A stretch of 36,021 nucleotides of DNA from Candidatus Saccharimonadota bacterium (GTDB lineage: Bacteria > Patescibacteriota > Saccharimonadia > Saccharimonadales > Saccharimonadaceae), in the NCBI GenBank assembly GCA_017513905.1, contig JAFWMR010000011.1:1-36021 (forward strand), read 5' to 3'. Every line of letters begins with the position of its first letter. The stretch's first letter is position 1. Shown here in pieces: positions 4,367-36,020 of the stretch. Position numbers and translations under genes: made by a program. Under the pieces are notes generated by a model. That model made no database searches. It had not been told where the DNA came from and worked only from the letters and a program-made list of their open reading frames with translations.

Positions 4367-5542
4367 TTAGGATAGAATTATTTCACCTTTAACGTGCGAC
4401 TTCTTCGTGTGCCACTTGCAATAAAGGATAAAGGAGGCAAATGTTGCACTAATAATGGTCATAATTAATACTACGAGATTACCTGCATTGACACTACCGT
4501 CCGAGTTCGTAAAAATACCAGTGTTTGGAGCGCCTGGATTCGTTGGTCCAGATGTATCTGGAACACCAGGTGAATCCGGGTCGGTCGTTGGACCGGTTGG
4601 ATCGTCTGGGTCGGCCGGATCGGTTGGATCGTCTGGGTCGGTTGGGTCATCTGGATCCGTTGGGTCATCTGGATCGGTTGGATCGTCTGGGTCGGTTGGA
4701 TCGGTTGGATCGTCTGGGTCGGTTGGATCATCAGGATCGGTTGGATCGTCTGGGTCGGTTGGATCATCAGGATCGGTTGGATCAGTTGGGTCAGTTGGAT
4801 CGGTTGGATCAGTTGGATCAGTTGGATCGGTTGGATCAGTTGGGTCAGTTGGATCGGTTGGATCAGTTGGATCAGTTGGATCGGTTGGATCGGTTGGATC
4901 AGTTGGGTCAGTTGGATCGGTTGGATCGGTTGGATCAGTTGGGTCAGTTGGATCGGTTGGATCAGTTGGATCAGTTGGGTCAGTTGGGTTGTTTCTTGTT
5001 ACCGTAACAGTGGTAGTTAATGCTATGGTATCATCTTCGTCTACATCTGAACCGTCGATATCGTACGTGAAGATTCCATCAGAGAAAGAAATGGTATATG
5101 TTCCAGCCGGTGTATCCTTATCAACTGTGTAGGCCGCCGACAAGACTTCACCACCAGCGGCTACAGACATTCCAGCTCCGTCTTCGGGAGTCCATGCAAC
5201 AACACCATTAGCCCCATGAGCTATAGTTGTAGACCCACCACGATTAGTATCGGACAAGCTAAAGTACGATGTCTGAGCTACTTCCTCAGTCGACCAGGTA
5301 CCCTGGATTGCAACGTAAGACCTAGCTACTGAAGTTTTTAGTGCAACTGCTACAGCACCGTCATTTACCCCGTCCAGCACGACACTACCAACTGTCATGC
5401 TGTATTCTGACGAGCTGGCCTGTACTAGCTGGCATGTTGTCCATATACTTCCTGCCAAGCATAATGTGCTTGATGCGACTAGGCATGCATTGATTGGTAT
5501 TGCCTTCAATATTTTTTGAAATTTATGAGTTTGTATTTGCAT
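4367..5542 (-). CDS. Cell-surface anchor with cohesin-like domain, Asp-Pro-Thr repeat stalk and APNTG sorting signal
   Basis: The 391-residue protein has a signal segment (1-42), a beta-rich domain at 44-183 paralogous to that of 3283-4224, a (Asp-Pro-Thr)n stalk at about 185-315, then APNTG (338-342), a hydrophobic stretch and a basic tail (KWHTKKSHVK). This is the order of a sortase-anchored wall or surface protein with an extended stalk. The domain shows a cohesin-like pattern (SYVAIQGTWS, GGEVLSAAYTVDKDTPAGTY, DGIFTYDIDGSDVDEDD). I chose ATG 5542 rather than the in-frame ATG at 5563 because AAAGG lies six bases before it and because it aligns with the paralogue's start. It begins 14 bases after the stop of the LRR-dockerin gene, so the two are one operon, suggesting they bind each other. 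Confidence 0.75.
   Translation of the reverse strand: MQIQTHKFQKILKAIPINACLVASSTLCLAGSIWTTCQLVQASSSEYSMTVGSVVLDGVNDGAVAVALKTSVARSYVAIQGTWSTEEVAQTSYFSLSDTNRGGSTTIAHGANGVVAWTPEDGAGMSVAAGGEVLSAAYTVDKDTPAGTYTISFSDGIFTYDIDGSDVDEDDTIALTTTVTVTRNNPTDPTDPTDPTDPTDPTDPTDPTDPTDPTDPTDPTDPTDPTDPTDPTDPTDPTDPTDPTDPTDPTDPTDPTDPDDPTDPDDPTDPDDPTDPDDPTDPTDPDDPTDPDDPTDPDDPTDPDDPTDPADPDDPTGPTTDPDSPGVPDTSGPTNPGAPNTGIFTNSDGSVNAGNLVVLIMTIISATFASFILYCKWHTKKSHVKGEIILS
4600..4990 (-). repeat. Nine-base tandem repeat coding for the Asp-Pro-Thr stalk
   Basis: About 390 bases of units such as GGTTGGATC and GGTTGGGTC (plus strand) encode DPT and DPD triplets. The left third uses mixed DPD/DPT units and the right part nearly pure DPT. 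Copy changes keep frame, so stalk length can vary between cells. The repeat also leaves other frames open, producing spurious long plus-strand reading frames. Confidence 0.95.
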
Positions 5543-5556
5543 TTTTGACCTTTCTT

Positions 5557-8508
5557 TTACCAATTGATTTCGGCTCCCATGATATTATTAATAATTGCTC
5601 TTGCGTCTCTAATATTGACACCGTTCCTGCCGTCGACATCGGCAAGTTTTTCTTCCATACTAGACAAAGTGCCACTTCCTATAATTGAGCTCACAATTTT
5701 TCTTGCATCTCTTACATTAACGTTTGCGTCGGAATTAACATCGCCTGCGTAGGCCACCACTATTTGCATTCCTTCAACTGGGTTCATATTAAATATGCGC
5801 GCGTTGTTACGCCCTTCGGGAGCGTTAGAGCTTGCTAAACGAGTCCATGTGGTGCCATTATCTTGCGTCCAAAGTACCATGCAAGCCTTCTCACTCATTA
5901 CCATAAAACTGGTTTCCGAAATTGGCTCAATTTCGGCACCGCCATTAGTGAGGTTCGTTACTAACTCGTGCAACATTGAACCACTACTTCCAGAATCTAC
6001 ATATGTTACAGTGATCTTTGTCCCTGCTAAACCACCATCTGGTATAGTTACAGTCATTGTCTCTGTCGCATTCGTCATTGTAGCTGACATCGAGTCATAA
6101 TCTATCGTCCCATTCGTTATGATGTAGCTGCCCGCAGACTGGAACCCGCTCACATTCGGAAAAACTAATGTTGTGGCCTGCGAGAACACCGCCGGTAACA
6201 CATATGCTTCTTCTGCTGCCGCTACTGATCCGATTAATGTCTGGTTTGTCAAATCTAGTGTTGCCAATGTCGGCATCGTGTTTAGTCCAGTTATATCACC
6301 GATTTGATTATCTTTGAGGTGCAACTCCGCTAACCCAGTTAGTGATGTTAGGCCGCTTACTTCTGTAATCTGGTTGCTATCGAGGAATAATTTTGATAAC
6401 ACTGACATATTGCCAAACCCGGACGTACTGTCAATTTGATTTCCGTCTAGATGTAATTCACGCAGTCTTGGCGCTGCGGCTAAGTTGGAAATTGTATCGC
6501 CCGTAATTTGGTTATCGTTTAAATTCAAATTTTCCAACCGCGAAAAACCCATTCCAATAGTTGCGGCACTTGGGATACTAGTTACTCCTGAATTTTCTAT
6601 CATTAGAGTTGCCGGATTGCAAGAATAAAGATTACCATATTCGTCTTGAAATGCTAGCCCTGAAAAATCGCTAAAATTATTATCGCTTAGATCTAGCGCC
6701 TCTAATGGGTGCTGTAAATACCCTAACGGGCTCACATCGCTGATTCCGTTATTTGCCAAATATAGATATTGCATATTAGTCAAGTACTCTACCGAAGTGG
6801 GAATTGAACTCATCTGGTTATTGGTTAAATCTAAAAGCCCTAGGTTTATAAGATAATTCGTTATCGTGAACCAGTCGTCGTATTCTAGGTTATTATCGTT
6901 CAAATAGAGAATTAGTAGCGAGTACGCGTTTGACAACTTGCTAATATCCGTCAAACTATTTTCTCTTAGGTCTAGCACCTGTAAATTAGGAAATTCTTCA
7001 AGTCCAGTCAGATCAACCTCCGCTCCGTTGTTTACTCGCCTTAAAGTTAGTCTCAGGAATTGGCTTGAACCGTCACTCACCATCGCAATTTGTTTAGTTG
7101 TACTACAGGCATTCGTTAGTACTATTGGAGGATCATCTGGTGACCGATTTGAATTGCCCTGCGAATCTATAAATGCTACACCTGATGCGCCTTGATTGTA
7201 AACACTATTACATAGATTGGCGTCGTTGAATGTGACGACTTGTCCGGCAAAGTAGACTTCCAATCTAGAATTTTCAAATACTCCTGTTCCGGCTGGAACC
7301 ATTACCGTCGCTGGTCGTGGATTCGAATCGTTCATCGATGCAATCGCTGCGTCTATAAATCTAACTTTGTCGCCGTTAAATTGCGCGTTAATCAAGGTCA
7401 ATTCGTTCGGCATTACCGAGTCATTTGATCCACTCGTCATTTCTTCAAAATAATCTTCTTCTTGCACTTGTTCGAAAAGTGTTGGCAACGGACTATAGTC
7501 TAGACTTTCCACGGCTCGCGTAAATAACTGAGAGTCTGCTTTTAGCGATGTAAAGGCCTTGGTTTTGATCGAACTGAAGTCGTCTATGTGATTCTCACTT
7601 ACGTCTAGTTTTACCAAATGTTGCAGAGCGGATATGCATATTAAATCATCTGCGTTTAAGTCATTTCTAGCAACGTATAGCTCAGTCATGGCCAAATCGT
7701 CGGCATATGTCTCGAACGATGCAAGGTTGCCACCGCATATTCCATCATTCTGCTCTTTTTCATTAGACATGCCACTGTTGTCGTTTGCAATCAAAGCTTG
7801 TAATACTTTAGCTAAATTGGAGCTGGTATCTGGATCTGTTAGTGGTTCGCCTGTATTTTCATCGTATTCTATTTCGGCAGGCTGAAACAATTCTTCGTAG
7901 TTATATACGCCTGTATTCGATAGGTTTAGTGTTTGTAATGAAGTGGATTCACTTAACTCACGTAACCCGGATCCAACTGGGTTACCAGAAAGATCAAGAT
8001 ACGTTAATGAGTCCTTTATAGTGTACAGTGGGGTAACATCATATATTTGGTTGTTTGAAAGATTAAGGTAAGTCAGCCTTCCGCGCAAATTTCGTAACGG
8101 AGAGATATCCTCTACACCCGCATCAGTAATCGATAACGAGGATAGATTATAAAAAACGTTCGTCCAATCACCCGATATGCTGACAAATGGCTCATCTGGC
8201 GGCAAAATGTTTAGTGTTTCTATATTACCAATAGCAGATGTAGTGATAGATAATTCGAGGTGTGTACATTGCCTGCCGTCTACTTTTCCAGGCACTCCGT
8301 TCGTTTCCATACTTTCAGTTATCGCTACAGATACTGCACTACAAAACCTTGAATTGCTGAACCATAACGTCGTCATGTCTTGTTCGTCAGCCCAGATTTG
8401 GCCAGTAAGTCCCATCGCACCACCTGTAGCCAATGCTAGAATCGCTATTGTGACTGGTAGCAAGAAAAATTTCCTCTGCCTACGAAAGCTTTGTGTCCCA
8501 ATTTTCAT
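5557..8508 (-). CDS. Secreted leucine-rich-repeat protein with C-terminal dockerin
   Basis: The 983-residue protein starts with a basic region and hydrophobic signal segment (11-36). Two blocks of about 22-residue LRRs of the internalin/SDS22 type follow (roughly 120-310 and 490-770; for example LTYLNLSNNQIYDVTPL and LRELHLDGNQIDS), separated by a non-LRR insert of about 170 residues. After them come an Ig-like/cap region (about 770-915) and a dockerin at 921-983. The dockerin has two calcium loops with the 1-3-5-9-12 ligand spacing, DVNSDANVNVRD and DVDGRNGVNIRD, each followed by AR(K/A)I; position 5 of the second loop is Arg, which is unusual. There is no sorting signal or C-terminal membrane segment, so it needs a partner to stay on the cell; the downstream cohesin-like anchor is the obvious candidate. 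Likely role: adhesion or host/partner-cell binding. Confidence 0.88.
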   Translation of the reverse strand: MKIGTQSFRRQRKFFLLPVTIAILALATGGAMGLTGQIWADEQDMTTLWFSNSRFCSAVSVAITESMETNGVPGKVDGRQCTHLELSITTSAIGNIETLNILPPDEPFVSISGDWTNVFYNLSSLSITDAGVEDISPLRNLRGRLTYLNLSNNQIYDVTPLYTIKDSLTYLDLSGNPVGSGLRELSESTSLQTLNLSNTGVYNYEELFQPAEIEYDENTGEPLTDPDTSSNLAKVLQALIANDNSGMSNEKEQNDGICGGNLASFETYADDLAMTELYVARNDLNADDLICISALQHLVKLDVSENHIDDFSSIKTKAFTSLKADSQLFTRAVESLDYSPLPTLFEQVQEEDYFEEMTSGSNDSVMPNELTLINAQFNGDKVRFIDAAIASMNDSNPRPATVMVPAGTGVFENSRLEVYFAGQVVTFNDANLCNSVYNQGASGVAFIDSQGNSNRSPDDPPIVLTNACSTTKQIAMVSDGSSQFLRLTLRRVNNGAEVDLTGLEEFPNLQVLDLRENSLTDISKLSNAYSLLILYLNDNNLEYDDWFTITNYLINLGLLDLTNNQMSSIPTSVEYLTNMQYLYLANNGISDVSPLGYLQHPLEALDLSDNNFSDFSGLAFQDEYGNLYSCNPATLMIENSGVTSIPSAATIGMGFSRLENLNLNDNQITGDTISNLAAAPRLRELHLDGNQIDSTSGFGNMSVLSKLFLDSNQITEVSGLTSLTGLAELHLKDNQIGDITGLNTMPTLATLDLTNQTLIGSVAAAEEAYVLPAVFSQATTLVFPNVSGFQSAGSYIITNGTIDYDSMSATMTNATETMTVTIPDGGLAGTKITVTYVDSGSSGSMLHELVTNLTNGGAEIEPISETSFMVMSEKACMVLWTQDNGTTWTRLASSNAPEGRNNARIFNMNPVEGMQIVVAYAGDVNSDANVNVRDARKIVSSIIGSGTLSSMEEKLADVDGRNGVNIRDARAIINNIMGAEINW

Positions 8509-16140: not shown

Positions 16141-16165
16141 AATAATTAAACTAGATTTAATTATT
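16141..16165. promoter_or_regulatory. AT-only palindrome in the divergent promoter region
   Basis: AATAATTAAA and TTTAATTATT form a perfect ten-base inverted repeat around a five-base centre, about 45 bases before the VTC gene's -10 box. It may be an operator or a weak hairpin; no T-run marks it as a terminator. Confidence 0.35.
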
Positions 16166-16223: not shown

Positions 16224-17009
16224 ATGAAAGCAAAAGCAGTACTCACCGCGTCCGATCGGACTATCGAGCGGGTTGAGGAAAAGTATCTCATCACGAAGCA
16301 TCAAAAAACTGTTTTGATGAAGATGATTTCTGAAAGATTGGAACATGATGATTACTATAAAGAGCAAATTATAAGCTTGTACCTGGATAGCGACAATTAC
16401 GATTTAGCAGTCAAGACCTTGGATAGGCCAAATTTTCGTTTGAAAGTTAGGGTGCGATCATACGATGTACCGACACCTTCAAAAAGAGTATTCTTTGAAG
16501 TCAAAACGAAGTTGAAAACCGAAAAGAGAAAAGTCGGAAATAAACGCCGGTTAGTGTTGCCGCTTAAGGATTTTTATGCTTATATAAATAAGGGGCAGGA
16601 TTTGGAGGAACTTGCCAAGAAAGCTTCTAAATGTGATGCGCAGCAATGCCAAGTAGCGCGTGAGTTGGATTATCTTGTGAAGGTATACGACCTCAAACCG
16701 AAGATACTAATTTCTTCGGACCGAACAGCATTTAAGGGGAAATTCAATGAGGATTTCCGGCTCACATTCGACGAAAATTTGAGATTTAGGACTCAGAAGT
16801 TGAGGCTGGAGAAGAAGGGATCCTGGGAAAAGTATTTTCCAAACACGTCAGATCCAAAACGATCGATAATTATGGAAGTTAAGACTATGCATGCGATGCC
16901 ACCTTGGTTCGTTGCGGAGCTGGGCAAGCTCCATATATATCCAGTAAGATTTTCTAAATATGGAAAAATTTATCAATTAATAAAAGAAAGGAATAATAAT
17001 GTTCAATAG
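16224..17009 (+). CDS. VTC-domain protein (polyphosphate polymerase-like)
   Basis: A 261-residue soluble protein of the VTC family, whose eukaryotic member Vtc4 makes polyphosphate inside a triphosphate-tunnel fold. Visible tunnel features are EEKYLIT near the N-terminus, the basic strand FRLKVRVRSY, FFEVKTKL, RRLVLPL, the FRLTFDENLRFR strand, IIMEVKTMHAMP and a final YPVRFSKYGKIYQL. Charged residues of the tunnel (Glu, Lys, Arg) are conserved. The gene overlaps the DUF4956 gene by 11 bases; bacterial VTC genes are commonly paired with DUF4956 genes. Its product in bacteria has not been settled; polyphosphate or another phosphate polymer is the likely one. Confidence 0.85.
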   Translation: MKAKAVLTASDRTIERVEEKYLITKHQKTVLMKMISERLEHDDYYKEQIISLYLDSDNYDLAVKTLDRPNFRLKVRVRSYDVPTPSKRVFFEVKTKLKTEKRKVGNKRRLVLPLKDFYAYINKGQDLEELAKKASKCDAQQCQVARELDYLVKVYDLKPKILISSDRTAFKGKFNEDFRLTFDENLRFRTQKLRLEKKGSWEKYFPNTSDPKRSIIMEVKTMHAMPPWFVAELGKLHIYPVRFSKYGKIYQLIKERNNNVQ

Positions 17010-17670
17010 CGTGTTCGACACAGCAGCGGCAGGACTCAATATTACGACGATTCTGCTGTGCTCAGGCGCAGCAATAGCGTTGGGGCTAGTAATTGCGTTC
17101 ACACATCTAAAAACTAGTAGGACGAGTAAAAATTTCTTAATTACTCTTACAATCTTACCGCTACTTGTCGAAGTGGTAATGCTGATGGTGAATGGGTCGC
17201 TCGGTACGTCGATCGCTATTTTGGGCGCGTTCTCACTCATTCGTTTCCGTTCGATTGCAGGAAACTCGAAAGAAATCTCAAGTGTATTCTTCGCAATGGC
17301 AGTAGGGCTTGCGCTCGGTATGGGGCATATTCTTTTTGCAGCAGTTGTCACGGCGATTACCGTCATGGTGATTTTGATTCTGTCGAAGTCCAAGATCTTC
17401 AACCTCAGCGCGCAACCTCAAACGCTTAAGATTACTATTCCAGAAGACCTCGATTATTCGCACGTCTTCGATGCAGAATTTAAAAAGTATACTAACTATC
17501 ACGAGTTGGTGCGGAGCAAAACCTCTAATATGGGAAGCTTGTATGTATTGACATACGAAGTCAGTTTAAAGAAAGCTGCCAATGAAAAAGAATTCTTAGA
17601 CGCGATTCGGGTCAAGAACTCAAATTTGAAGGTTTTGCTTAGCCACGTGTCTAAGGAGGCATTAATTTAG
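16999..17670 (+). CDS. DUF4956 membrane protein, partner of the VTC protein
   Basis: A 223-residue protein with about four membrane helices in its first 135 residues, then a cytoplasmic C-terminal domain. The stretch SLGTSIAILGAFSLIRFRS (about 73-91), with its conserved charged residues in a hydrophobic setting, is the hallmark of DUF4956. AAAGGA precedes the ATG. The gene overlaps the VTC gene upstream and the beta-helix gene downstream (by one base, TAGTG), so the three are one translationally coupled operon. DUF4956 has no proven function; export or membrane coupling of the VTC product is the reasonable guess. Confidence 0.85.
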   Translation: MFNSVFDTAAAGLNITTILLCSGAAIALGLVIAFTHLKTSRTSKNFLITLTILPLLVEVVMLMVNGSLGTSIAILGAFSLIRFRSIAGNSKEISSVFFAMAVGLALGMGHILFAAVVTAITVMVILILSKSKIFNLSAQPQTLKITIPEDLDYSHVFDAEFKKYTNYHELVRSKTSNMGSLYVLTYEVSLKKAANEKEFLDAIRVKNSNLKVLLSHVSKEALI

Positions 17671-19196
17671 TGAAGGAAATTAAGAAAGATTCAGCAAAAA
17701 ATAGGGGCGAGAAAGCTAAGAGAGCGCATAGCGAAGTTGCGACAGTTTTGCCGGAAAAAACATCCGAAAAGCGTAAAAAAGAGCCAAAAAGGCGGCCAGT
17801 ACTAGTCATCACGATAATACTCGTTGTGGTGGTCGCAGTGGCGATAATCTTTGGTGGAGCAAACGGAACTGGTAGATCGACACTTAGTAATAATATTAAC
17901 GATACTGGTGTTAACTGGGACAGATACGACACTACAGCAATAACACTCTCTGGTACTGGCAAAACGCTAATTACACAAGCGGGTGTTTATACCGTAACTG
18001 GGACATTGTCTGATGGTTATATAGAGATTAATTCCCTGGGCGCGGTTAAGTTGATTTTGGATGGAGTCATAATCACGAATAATAGTGGTCCAGCAATTTA
18101 TGTTGCAGGAGCGGAAATGGTGACAATTGAACTCGCAGGGGGAAGTAATAATACATTGACTGATGCGACAATCTACAGAGGATGGGATGAAGATGTGTGT
18201 GGCGTGTTGTTTTCGCATGATGATTTAGTATTGCAGGGTGATGGTGAGCTTACTATTGAGGCAAACTACGAGGACGGAATCGTTGGCAAGGACGATCTAA
18301 AGATTAACTCTGGAATTTATAATATAGACGCAAAAGATGAAGGGATACGTGGCAGAGATTCGATTTATATTGTAGATGGCACCTTCGAAATCACCTCGGG
18401 CGGAGATGCATTAAAGTCCAATAATAGCGATGAGGTTGGCAAGGGATGGGTTAAAATTGATGGTGGGTCAATAACTGCATCTGCTGATGATGATGGTGTA
18501 CATGCCGAATCGTCACTCGAAATAAATGGTGGAACTATTCAAATTAATAAAAGTTATGAAGGCATCGAAGCAGCGAAGGTTACTATTAATGACGGGGAAA
18601 TATCTATCACGGCTAGCGATGATGGGATTAATGCTGCGGGTGGTAACGACGGCTCGTCACCAAATATGGGACGATATCAGCAGAGCTCAAACAACTATTC
18701 AATTTCTATTAACGGTGGCAGGTTATATGTGAATTCTGCCGGTGATGGTATAGATAGCAACGGCGCCGTGTATGTTAATGGCGGGACCGTGATCGTCGAT
18801 GGGCCAACTAACAGTGGGAATGGAGCACTTGATTCTGAGACAGGTGTAATTTTTAATGGCGGTTCGGTAGTTGCGATCGGCGCGAGTGGAATGGCTGTGG
18901 CACCTGACAAATCGTCTGCAAAATATTCCATATCGGTATTCTTTGCATCGACTTATAGCGCCGGGACGGTACTTGAGGTGTACGATGATCATGGAAACGT
19001 AATTCTTAAGCATACGAGCTTAAAGAGCTTCCAGCATGCCTCGCTTAGTAGCGACGCATTCGAAGAAGGAGAGACGTATTATGTGTACGTTGACGACGTA
19101 AGATATACCACAGTGACATTGTCAGAGAAAACGACGCAAGTCGGACAAGGCAACAGAATGATGCCTGGCGGACGCGGGCAGGAGTGGCGATTCTAG
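17670..19196 (+). CDS. Membrane-anchored Cthe_2159/DUF4353-like beta-helix protein
   Basis: A 508-residue protein: very basic cytoplasmic N-terminus (1-42), one membrane helix (about 43-62), then a right-handed beta-helix with repeated rungs such as GVYTVTGTLSDG, EDGIVGKDDLKINSG, DDGVHAESSLEINGG and GDGIDSNGAVYVNGG. The acidic turns (EDGI, DEGI, DDGV, GDGI) fit the calcium-binding ladder of Cthe_2159, a polysaccharide-binding protein. The final part (about 425-490) resembles a small beta domain. It starts at GTG 17670 with AAGGAGG upstream, overlapping the DUF4956 stop. In other bacteria the third gene with VTC/DUF4956 is often CotH-like; here a polysaccharide-binding beta-helix takes that place. 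Confidence 0.82.
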   Translation: MKEIKKDSAKNRGEKAKRAHSEVATVLPEKTSEKRKKEPKRRPVLVITIILVVVVAVAIIFGGANGTGRSTLSNNINDTGVNWDRYDTTAITLSGTGKTLITQAGVYTVTGTLSDGYIEINSLGAVKLILDGVIITNNSGPAIYVAGAEMVTIELAGGSNNTLTDATIYRGWDEDVCGVLFSHDDLVLQGDGELTIEANYEDGIVGKDDLKINSGIYNIDAKDEGIRGRDSIYIVDGTFEITSGGDALKSNNSDEVGKGWVKIDGGSITASADDDGVHAESSLEINGGTIQINKSYEGIEAAKVTINDGEISITASDDGINAAGGNDGSSPNMGRYQQSSNNYSISINGGRLYVNSAGDGIDSNGAVYVNGGTVIVDGPTNSGNGALDSETGVIFNGGSVVAIGASGMAVAPDKSSAKYSISVFFASTYSAGTVLEVYDDHGNVILKHTSLKSFQHASLSSDAFEEGETYYVYVDDVRYTTVTLSEKTTQVGQGNRMMPGGRGQEWRF

Positions 19197-19210: not shown

Positions 19211-19241
19211 AATTCCCCGGTTGTTCGCCGGGGAATTTTTG
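19211..19241 (+). terminator. Terminator of the VTC operon
   Basis: AATTCCCCGG pairs with CCGGGGAATT around a seven-base loop, then T residues. It also lies just past the end of the minus-strand gene at 19254 and may serve both. Confidence 0.9.
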
Positions 19242-33725: not shown

Positions 33726-36020
33726 TCATTGTGCTATTGTGAAGAATTTGCTATTATTCGGTACACCGTAAGCTGAAGTAGTTTTACCATACATACGAGA
33801 AGTTGTATTATTTATGCTCCCACCGTTAGTGGCTGGAATAGTGACAAGCCAAGCAGAAGCAGTAGCTTTAGTGCCAGCGCCATAGAACATGTATCCCATA
33901 TTCGTCACATTAGAAGTATTCCAACCAGATAAATTAAGGATGAAAGTAGTAGAACTGAATCCGGTTTCGGCGAACATATTACTCATATATGTTACGCTAG
34001 AAGTATCCCAATGAGAGAGGTCTAAAGAGAAAGTGGTGGCGTTGTAGCCGGCAGAGGCGAACATATTATTCATGTTCGTCACACTAGAAGTATTCCAGCG
34101 AGAAATGTCACCGATAGACCAGGTGGTGGCGTTGTAGCCGGCAGAGGCGAACATGTAACCCATATTCGTCACTTTAGAAGTATTCCAGGATGAGAGGCCG
34201 GTGAGGTTGAAGGTGATGGCAGAGTATCCGGCCGAGTTAAACATGCTACTCATGTTCGTCGCGCTAGAAGTGTTCCAGCGAGAAATGTCACCGATAGACC
34301 AGGTGGTGGCGCTGTAGCCGGCGAATGAGAACATGCTGGCCATGTTTGTTACTTTAGATGTGTCCCATGTTGATAGACCAACAAGGTTGAAGGTAGTGGC
34401 GCTGTAGCCGGCTTGAAGGAACATATAGCTCATGTTCGTCACTTTAGAGGTATCCCAATTAGATAGATCGAGGTTGAAGGTGGTAGTACTGCGACCGGCA
34501 TAGGAAAACATGTAGCTCATGTTCGTCGCGCTAGAAGTGTTCCAGCGAGAAATGTCACCGATAGACCAGGTGGTGGCGCTGCGGTCGGCGGAGAAGAACA
34601 TGTAACTCATGTTTGTCACGCTAGAGGTATTCCAGCGTGAGAGATCGCCGATAGACCAGGTGGTGGCGCTGTAGCCGGCTTGATGGAACATGTAGCTCAT
34701 GTTTATCACTTTAGAGGTATCCCATGTGGAGAGACCAACAAGGTTGAAGGTAGTGGCATAATATCCGGCGGAGTCGAACATGTTGTTCGCACTTGTTACA
34801 TTAGCGGTGTTCCAGTTAGAGAGATTGAGGTTGAAGGTGGTGGCGTTGTAGCCGGCAGAGGCGAACATATTACTCATGTTCGTCAAATTGGAGGTGTCCC
34901 AATGAGAGAGATCGAAAGAGAGAGTGGTGGCTTTGAAGCCGGCCTCATTGAACATATAGCTCATGTTCGTCACTTTAGAGGTATCCCAATGAGATAGATC
35001 GCCGATAGACCAGTTATTGGTAGTGTCGCTGTAACCGACTAGATGGAACATGTAGCTCATGTTTGTCACGTTGGAAGTATTAATATCGGAGAGGTCGGAG
35101 ATTTCTACAAGTTTTTGAAGCTTATCAAACATATAGCTAGAATCCGCATTAGCATAGATAGTCCTAGCTTCAGAATAATAGTACATAGTACTGGTAGTGT
35201 TATCAAAGTAGATGTAGACAGGAATAGAATAAGTATCATTAGTGATAGAAATAGTGTTAGCGGAAGAAGGAATGAAGTTGCTTGGAAGAGTATTTGAGCG
35301 ACTAAAGGCAGTGATTTTTATGTCATACGTAGAGAGTGATGCGTTCGTAGTGTTATTAGCAAGATTTTTGAGCTTCTTATTGACGTTTCTTCCAGTGTCT
35401 AGCATAGCCATAGCTTCTTTGTAAATTGCGTAGAGAGTAATGGTATCGCCGTAATCACCTTGGAGATTCGTTCGCGCTTCTTGTTCGTTCTCGTAAGCAG
35501 GAGTGGTAGCTTCATTATCCTCGCTCCAACCAAGGAAGACCTGGCCCGTGGGATTAATAGGAGTCTCGTAAGTGCCAGAGCCAATAATACGACGACCACA
35601 CTGAGTAGCGATATCGCCGATCTGGAGTTCGTTGCCGTTGGCGTCAAGAGCAGTGATGATGGCATAATAGCCATAGTAAGCAGTTGAATCGTTAGAATAG
35701 AAAGCGAAAGTAGCGGTGTCGCCTGGAATATCAAGGGTAACAGTAGTGGTAGTGTAGTCACCTCCCGTGTATTCCTGTAACTGACCGGCAGACATATTTA
35801 TTGTTACGTCCCCCGTGTATTCTCCTTCAAAGACATATAGCTTATCGATGTTGTTTTCCGTACCATAGCTAATGGTAGCACGCAGCTTACTGGCGCCTTC
35901 AATAGTGATAACATCTTTGGTGGCGAGGTTGTTGGCATAGTTACCGCTCCTGTTTCCGGCATCATCAATGTTGGCGGTATGAGAATAGCGTGGGGTGGTG
36001 CCAACAGTAACGTCTTCACA
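33726..36020 (-). CDS. Large BspA-like (DUF285) surface protein with CUB-like domain, N-terminus outside window
   Basis: The frame is open through the right edge, so the internal Met at 35795 is not the start; about 764 residues are visible. In order: a CUB-like beta domain (KDVITIEGASKLRATISYG ... YYGYYAIITALD), an InlB B-repeat-like segment (VFLGWSEDNE ... ITLYAIYKE), a connector, and 14 DUF285 units of about 25 residues with the pattern W(D/N)TSxVTNMSYMFxxAGYxATT (33800-35108). It ends TSAYGVPNNSKFFTIAQ, with no membrane segment or sorting motif. DUF285 repeats are found in BspA-like adhesins. The role is probably adhesion, with anchoring by an N-terminal element outside the window or by a partner. 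The FISUMP gene follows in the same operon. Confidence 0.85.
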   Translation of the reverse strand, partial: CEDVTVGTTPRYSHTANIDDAGNRSGNYANNLATKDVITIEGASKLRATISYGTENNIDKLYVFEGEYTGDVTINMSAGQLQEYTGGDYTTTTVTLDIPGDTATFAFYSNDSTAYYGYYAIITALDANGNELQIGDIATQCGRRIIGSGTYETPINPTGQVFLGWSEDNEATTPAYENEQEARTNLQGDYGDTITLYAIYKEAMAMLDTGRNVNKKLKNLANNTTNASLSTYDIKITAFSRSNTLPSNFIPSSANTISITNDTYSIPVYIYFDNTTSTMYYYSEARTIYANADSSYMFDKLQKLVEISDLSDINTSNVTNMSYMFHLVGYSDTTNNWSIGDLSHWDTSKVTNMSYMFNEAGFKATTLSFDLSHWDTSNLTNMSNMFASAGYNATTFNLNLSNWNTANVTSANNMFDSAGYYATTFNLVGLSTWDTSKVINMSYMFHQAGYSATTWSIGDLSRWNTSSVTNMSYMFFSADRSATTWSIGDISRWNTSSATNMSYMFSYAGRSTTTFNLDLSNWDTSKVTNMSYMFLQAGYSATTFNLVGLSTWDTSKVTNMASMFSFAGYSATTWSIGDISRWNTSSATNMSSMFNSAGYSAITFNLTGLSSWNTSKVTNMGYMFASAGYNATTWSIGDISRWNTSSVTNMNNMFASAGYNATTFSLDLSHWDTSSVTYMSNMFAETGFSSTTFILNLSGWNTSNVTNMGYMFYGAGTKATASAWLVTIPATNGGSINNTTSRMYGKTTSAYGVPNNSKFFTIAQ
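33800..35108 (-). repeat. DUF285 repeat array (14 units)
   Basis: Imperfect units of about 75-90 bases. The plus strand repeatedly reads GAACATGTAGCTCATGTT and GATAGACCAGGTGGTGGCG. Some units are almost identical in DNA (around 34095, 34270, 34540 and 34630), others differ at synonymous sites, so recent copying or gene conversion within the array is likely. Confidence 0.9.

Follow-up and report, generated by a model that had tools for sequence, protein, structure and literature searches.

The VTC–DUF4956–β-helix operon of the window (the whole 36,021-nt stretch of DNA analysed here) consists of three plus-strand genes, each overlapping the next end to start. Its polymerase–membrane core is fixed, and its third gene fills an extracytoplasmic slot that can be exchanged. 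The operon and the exchange of its third gene with CotH point to a previously undescribed modular system, for which we propose a role in surface polyphosphate. The host is a Nanosyncoccus-like member of the Saccharibacteria (919,513 bases, 98.95% complete; the operon lies on contig C19). Its closest named relatives, retrieved by sequence, are Saccharibacteria of the ruminant gut, including Candidatus Nanosyncoccus alces.

Features of the operon (positions in the window)
Feature	Position	Strand	Model match
VTC-domain protein of 261 aa, predicted to be a cytosolic polyphosphate polymerase of the triphosphate-tunnel type	16224..17009	+	Pfam PF09359, E 3.8e-38
DUF4956 membrane protein, 223 aa	16999..17670	+	PF16316, E 1.4e-15
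TAAGGAGG, Shine-Dalgarno-like, inside the 3' end of the DUF4956 gene, serving the GTG of the third gene	17652..17659	+	
Membrane-anchored Cthe_2159-family β-helix protein, 508 aa, GTG start	17670..19196	+	PF14262, E 4e-72
Intrinsic-terminator-like hairpin closing the operon, strong, 11 pairs, T run	19211..19237	+	

The gene arrangement behind the translational coupling of the original prediction was confirmed, with overlaps of 11 nt between the VTC and DUF4956 genes and of 1 nt between the DUF4956 and β-helix genes (TAGTG, where the GTG begins on the last base of the DUF4956 stop codon). The ATG start of the VTC gene is backed by the closest homologue, at locus L102; a TTG start at position 16164, which results from mechanical open reading frame calling, was rejected as the same homologue favours the ATG. 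The proteins of the window and of L102 are ~77–78% (VTC), 92% (DUF4956) and 71% (β-helix) identical, with dN values of 0.05–0.21. No dN/dS ratio is given because dS is saturated; synonymous change this high at such identities indicates that all three genes look constrained. No promoter stands out in the region upstream of the VTC gene. The operon is flanked by a divergent surface-protein gene on one side and by a convergent gene for a metallo-β-lactamase-fold protein on the other.

To survey the gene neighbours we searched 119 relatives; 47 of these genomes contain VTC, with 49 VTC genes in all. DUF4956 directly follows VTC on the same strand in all 49 cases, and the β-helix gene is third in 47 of the 49 loci, which is 47 of the 48 testable ones. 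The exception in genome G023 is due to a contig end; in G052 (locus L082) the third gene is truly absent. On the genome level, VTC and the β-helix occur together in 46 genomes, VTC alone in one and the β-helix alone in four. The genes of the trio are confined to one of the 45 genera sampled. The overlap between VTC and DUF4956 is kept in 48/51 Saccharibacteria loci, and the distance from DUF4956 to the β-helix gene is zero or negative in 37/48. Linkage counts of this kind across 119 relatives rule out chance gene order. Second Cthe_2159 genes are found in the same genomic region but away from VTC at two loci (L086:15449-16993 and L144:1280-3124), so the β-helix can also exist outside the operon.

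The trio is by no means restricted to Saccharibacteria. Relatives retrieved by sequence place it in Ruminococcus, other Oscillospiraceae, Vagococcus and gut Bacilli, and both Clostridia and gut Bacilli commonly carry it; the trio is less unusual than the original prediction implied. In an evenly drawn sample of 196 Clostridia genomes, 97 contain VTC. Among the 120 VTC matches of this sample, a β-helix gene lies within 5 kb in 32 cases and a CotH gene in 47. Both partners together were found at none of the 120 loci (hypergeometric P 3.7e-9), so the β-helix is a genuine and systematic alternative to CotH. Every partner of either kind is encoded on the strand of VTC. Neither partner was found at 41/120 matches, some of which are fragments or are cut by contig ends; several complete loci, fully read, consist of the VTC–DUF4956 pair alone. 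Both partners go with VTC: the β-helix is present in 65/97 Clostridia genomes with VTC versus 7/99 without, and CotH in 61/97 versus 3/99, these counts being approximate as the matches listed end at weak scores.

A tree computed from VTC and DUF4956 (88 rows, quick method) contains one large clade with mostly CotH and another with mostly β-helix partners. This tree requires no fewer than 10 changes of partner, and the well-supported branches alone force at least 5 to 7 changes. DUF4956 is present in 77/80 of these loci. Repeated change of the partner, with DUF4956 nearly constant, thus identifies the third position as exchangeable and the core as fixed. The CotH-position proteins read at VTC loci begin with membrane anchors and therefore appear to be exported. 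A phosphodiester glycosidase gene (NAGPA, PF09992) follows the VTC–DUF4956 pair at one Lachnospiraceae locus (L173:9565-10557) and may represent a third type of partner.

CotH, a polyphosphate polymerase and DUF4956 have been described beside pelDEADAFG in streptococci, clostridia and bifidobacteria, and this Gram-positive accessory cassette may additionally contain DUF4832 or a DGC/PDE (PMC7112168). NELoc-2 of Clostridium perfringens carries VTC, ‘tubulin’ and CotH genes (PMC2879425). The window shares with the Pel accessory cassette the side-by-side VTC–DUF4956 core and an exported, membrane-anchored third protein; it differs in having a β-helix for CotH and in having neither a pel cluster nor DUF4832. 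Searches of an open-access full-text collection revealed no description of the β-helix version or of the exclusion between β-helix and CotH, and no functional test of a bacterial VTC enzyme, although VTC genes occur in about half of the sampled Clostridia. The β-helix version, its strict exclusion with CotH, the repeated exchange and the relation to MgtC described below are new relative to the published work on the CotH cassette.

The VTC protein of the window scores 131.8 bits against the Pfam VTC model (curated cut-off 23). A PDB search with this single sequence matched nothing; a profile was required, and a profile of 26 relatives matches yeast Vtc4 at E 2.8e-16. All eight basic residues of the Vtc4 tunnel (R196, K200, R264, R266, K281, K294, R361 and R373; numbering set by an offset on the profile alignment, which places known residues correctly) are identical in the window and invariant in the 26 relatives. 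An AF2 model of the protein (pLDDT 90.9) has Vtc4 or other VTC-complex proteins as its best 13 Foldseek matches (E 4.4e-15, TM 0.75), while CYTH hydrolases and adenylate cyclases rank after these with far weaker E-values. The modelling proposed with the original prediction thus gave a Vtc4-like fold, and the eight conserved residues speak against a dead tunnel; the protein is predicted to be a Vtc4-type enzyme with an apparently intact polyphosphate-polymerase tunnel. Neither of the two observations that would have refuted the original prediction, a tunnel stripped of its residues or a lack of linkage among relatives, was made. Further, E218 (in MEVK) and K245 (in FSKYG) are invariant. Assigned by motif, as the profile alignment ends before them, they are candidate equivalents of the metal-binding E426 and the catalytic K458 of Vtc4, respectively.

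In hydrolases of the AtTTM3 type, an acidic patch takes the place of the basic residues that lead the chain away in Vtc4 (PMC4641920). At such sites, R16 and K220 of the window protein (K220 being placed by motif) look basic, but at a third one the acidic E18 is found where Vtc4 has T198, so the window tunnel is not identical to that of Vtc4. The protein consists of the VTC domain only, without an SPX domain and without Vtc membrane helices. With DUF4956 as its membrane partner, it is therefore a member of the enzyme family and not the eukaryotic complex. Common to both systems are the tunnel fold, the basic tunnel residues and the pairing of the polymerase with a membrane part (PDB 3g3q/3g3r, 7ytj and 8i6v for eukaryotic VTC); in the window, however, a protein of its own, MgtC-like, provides the membrane part, and an extracytoplasmic partner is added. 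No PPK1 was found in the 119 relatives and no credible PPK2 in those of the genus, with models that do match in control genomes. PPK2 matches in some relatives are P-loop fragments of long open reading frames, and the three from the genus itself score low and contain stops. VTC is therefore the only visible polyphosphate synthase of the genome, and the trio may be the only route to polyphosphate in this genus.

DUF4956 has predicted transmembrane helices, followed by a cytosolic ACT/ferredoxin-like domain with βαββαβ topology (AF2 model, pLDDT 78). Its RFRS motif (residues 82–85) is invariant and, in the alignment, is part of an N-G...G...RFRS core within the membrane helices. Foldseek gave only common ACT/ferredoxin-like matches and no known channel fold. 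The C-terminal domains of MgtC (2lqj, 7qa5) were among these matches but were not distinctive, and the relation to MgtC was therefore addressed by profile comparison. In hhalign, DUF4956 and MgtC match with 94.2% probability (E 1.1e-7) over 197 columns across both domains; five control families reached at most 1.2% in the same comparison. The window protein alone scores 15.4 bits against the MgtC model PF02308 and does not reach its cut-off of 31.4. Weak MgtC matches were obtained for 22/36 DUF4956 proteins (best E 0.0064), and the sub-threshold matches of a genome search with the MgtC model include VTC-adjacent DUF4956 genes (e.g. G163:C55, G158:C36, G183:C6 and G149:C1). Given the score below the cut-off, DUF4956 is a predicted distant relative of MgtC/SapB, not a member of the family. 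The two share profile similarity over the full length, with membrane helices and a C-terminal ACT-like domain, but DUF4956 has RFRS where MgtC has its GFLGAG signature and is genetically tied to VTC. The relation connects a domain of unknown function with a family implicated in the control of phosphate and ATP.

The third protein has a basic N-terminal tail (residues 1–43), one transmembrane helix (residues ~44–63) and an acidic parallel β-helix ectodomain. Residues 77–300 align to the solved structure of Cthe_2159 (PDB 4peu, E 3.5e-36). Homology extends across most of the solved β-helix (PDB 4peu/4phb, PF14262); unlike Cthe_2159, the window protein carries a fused transmembrane anchor, and its gene is part of a VTC operon. 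Lipoprotein-like signals replace this anchor in some Firmicutes versions. The ectodomain has a pI of 4.2, with 60 Asp/Glu versus 26 Lys/Arg residues, and a conserved acidic series runs along the coils (D208, D209, D230, D274, D275, D317, D318, D359, D362 and others). Calcium binding by acidic β-helix turns had been suggested earlier. What stands of this is the acidic ectodomain with its conserved Asp/Glu series, which at the level of sequence is compatible with binding of cations (calcium) and of polysaccharide.

Our preferred reading, held tentatively, is that the operon encodes a membrane-coupled polyphosphate module whose product is passed on to a partner anchored on the outside. VTC, equipped with the residues and fold of the Vtc4 tunnel, would polymerize phosphate from ATP in the cytosol. 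It would dock on the MgtC-like DUF4956, which would stand in for the unrelated membrane helices of eukaryotic VTC, regulate VTC through its ACT-like domain and pass the chain outward. The anchored third component would receive or use the polymer outside. The acidic β-helix would most likely hold polyphosphate and/or acidic polysaccharide via divalent cations, and such bridging would keep the polyanion at the cell surface; in other bacteria, CotH would fill the same outer slot. In yeast, synthesis by VTC is coupled to passage, the nascent chain directly entering a basic membrane channel (PMC9911596), which favours this reading, and DUF4956 may by analogy play the role of that channel. The reading is favoured further by the linkage (49/49 and 47/48) of overlapping genes, by the invariant tunnel residues together with the Vtc4-closest fold and the basic-looking R16 and K220, and by the absence of PPK1 with PPK2 matches being P-loop fragments only. 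The constant company that the MgtC-like DUF4956 keeps with VTC, and the swapping of the third gene with CotH at least 10 times on a constant core, also argue for it. Against it stand E18 in place of T198, the placement of E218 and K245 by motif, the resemblance of DUF4956 to MgtC, which to our knowledge is not a polymer channel, and the few helices of DUF4956, which would need oligomerization. Further, an acidic β-helix would repel polyphosphate unless cations bridge the two, and some loci hold the core without a third partner. Of the single machine originally proposed, what is retained is a co-inherited three-part module with an apparently intact polymerase tunnel.

The main rival, which we consider rather unlikely, leaves the polyphosphate in the cytosol. 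DUF4956 would then only anchor VTC and regulate it through the ACT-like domain, and the β-helix or CotH would be a co-regulated surface adhesin without contact to the polymer. The absence of PPK would make VTC the phosphate and energy store, and the cytosolic ACT domains of MgtC-like proteins, the partner-less VTC–DUF4956 loci and the known carbohydrate binding of the Cthe_2159 family are all consistent with such a store. However, the tight coupling of the third gene is hard to explain by shared regulation alone, and the near-absence of the β-helix from genomes without VTC and its strict either/or relation to CotH are explained poorly, so this rival accounts for less of the exclusion and dependence data.

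It seems improbable to us that exported polyphosphate, or a short oligophosphate, drives extracytoplasmic reactions as a high-energy donor in a place without ATP, with CotH phosphorylating surface proteins or sugars and the β-helix acting as substrate, scaffold or acceptor-binding protein. The alternation of CotH and β-helix on one core, the apparent export of VTC-linked CotH-position proteins and the phosphodiester glycosidase in third position at the Lachnospiraceae locus would fit, but the β-helix lacks any kinase or transferase domain, and we know of no case of polyphosphate-driven CotH activity. We give very little credence to the trio modifying or tethering an exopolysaccharide, with polyphosphate synthesis secondary or lost: the CotH version is regarded as a helper of Pel and adjoins pelDEADAFG elsewhere (PMC7112168), and PGA_cap and GH97 genes lie near many Nanosyncoccus loci, but no pel-like or glycosyltransferase gene adjoins the window operon, and the invariant tunnel residues argue against loss of catalysis. 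A core that stays the same across phyla while its outer partner alternates between a kinase and a carbohydrate-binding β-helix leads to a concrete hypothesis: Gram-positive bacteria of the gut may have polyphosphate at their surface or carry out phosphorylation outside the cell.

In the VTC and DUF4956 trees, the Saccharibacteria sequences group within Firmicutes diversity with three gut Bacilli/Erysipelotrichia copies (L126, L147 and L149), the Firmicutes copies most closely related to the Saccharibacteria operon. L126 adjoins ribosomal-protein-like genes and is therefore unlikely to be a misbinned Saccharibacteria contig. The simplest reading of the trees would be horizontal transfer, in either direction, between gut Bacilli-like bacteria and this Saccharibacteria genus. 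A more far-reaching picture, which we regard as doubtful, would make VTC and the MgtC-like DUF4956 a widespread machine that produces polyphosphate and exports it to the envelope. Its outer partner would be either a CotH kinase, with the exported polymer maybe as phosphate donor, or a polymer-binding β-helix. The Saccharibacteria would have acquired this machine, their only polyphosphate system, from bacteria resembling gut Bacilli.

Genes for an OmpR-type response regulator and a histidine kinase adjoin the operon, by hand count, in 11/28 Firmicutes loci (e.g. L154, L156, L162, L166, L169 and L181), in 7/20 further Clostridia loci, which were picked from those with CotH or without a partner, and in roughly one-third of the Saccharibacteria loci (L083, L088, L096, L098, L121 and others). 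Loci L203, L206, L210, L214, L219 and L221 also have such a pair. No OmpR-type pair adjoins the window operon. Recurrence of such pairs whatever the third gene suggests a dedicated regulator.

Many Saccharibacteria loci have genes for a MacB-like ABC protein, PGA_cap, GH97 and a HisKA_7TM/CAP pair close by. The latter pair is conserved downstream of the trio at L098:6033-7926 and at ~28 further loci; it consists of a membrane protein with HisKA_7TM only, in which no kinase domain was detected, and a CAP/SCP-domain protein. Elsewhere in the window, 22 copies of an 18-base tandem repeat (4587-4987) lie in the minus-strand gene of an anchored surface protein (4367-5563), where they encode its long Pro-Thr-Asp/Asp-Asp stalk, and an array of ~90-base repeats (33998-35080) lies in the gene for a BspA/DUF285-like surface protein (33726-35795, minus strand).
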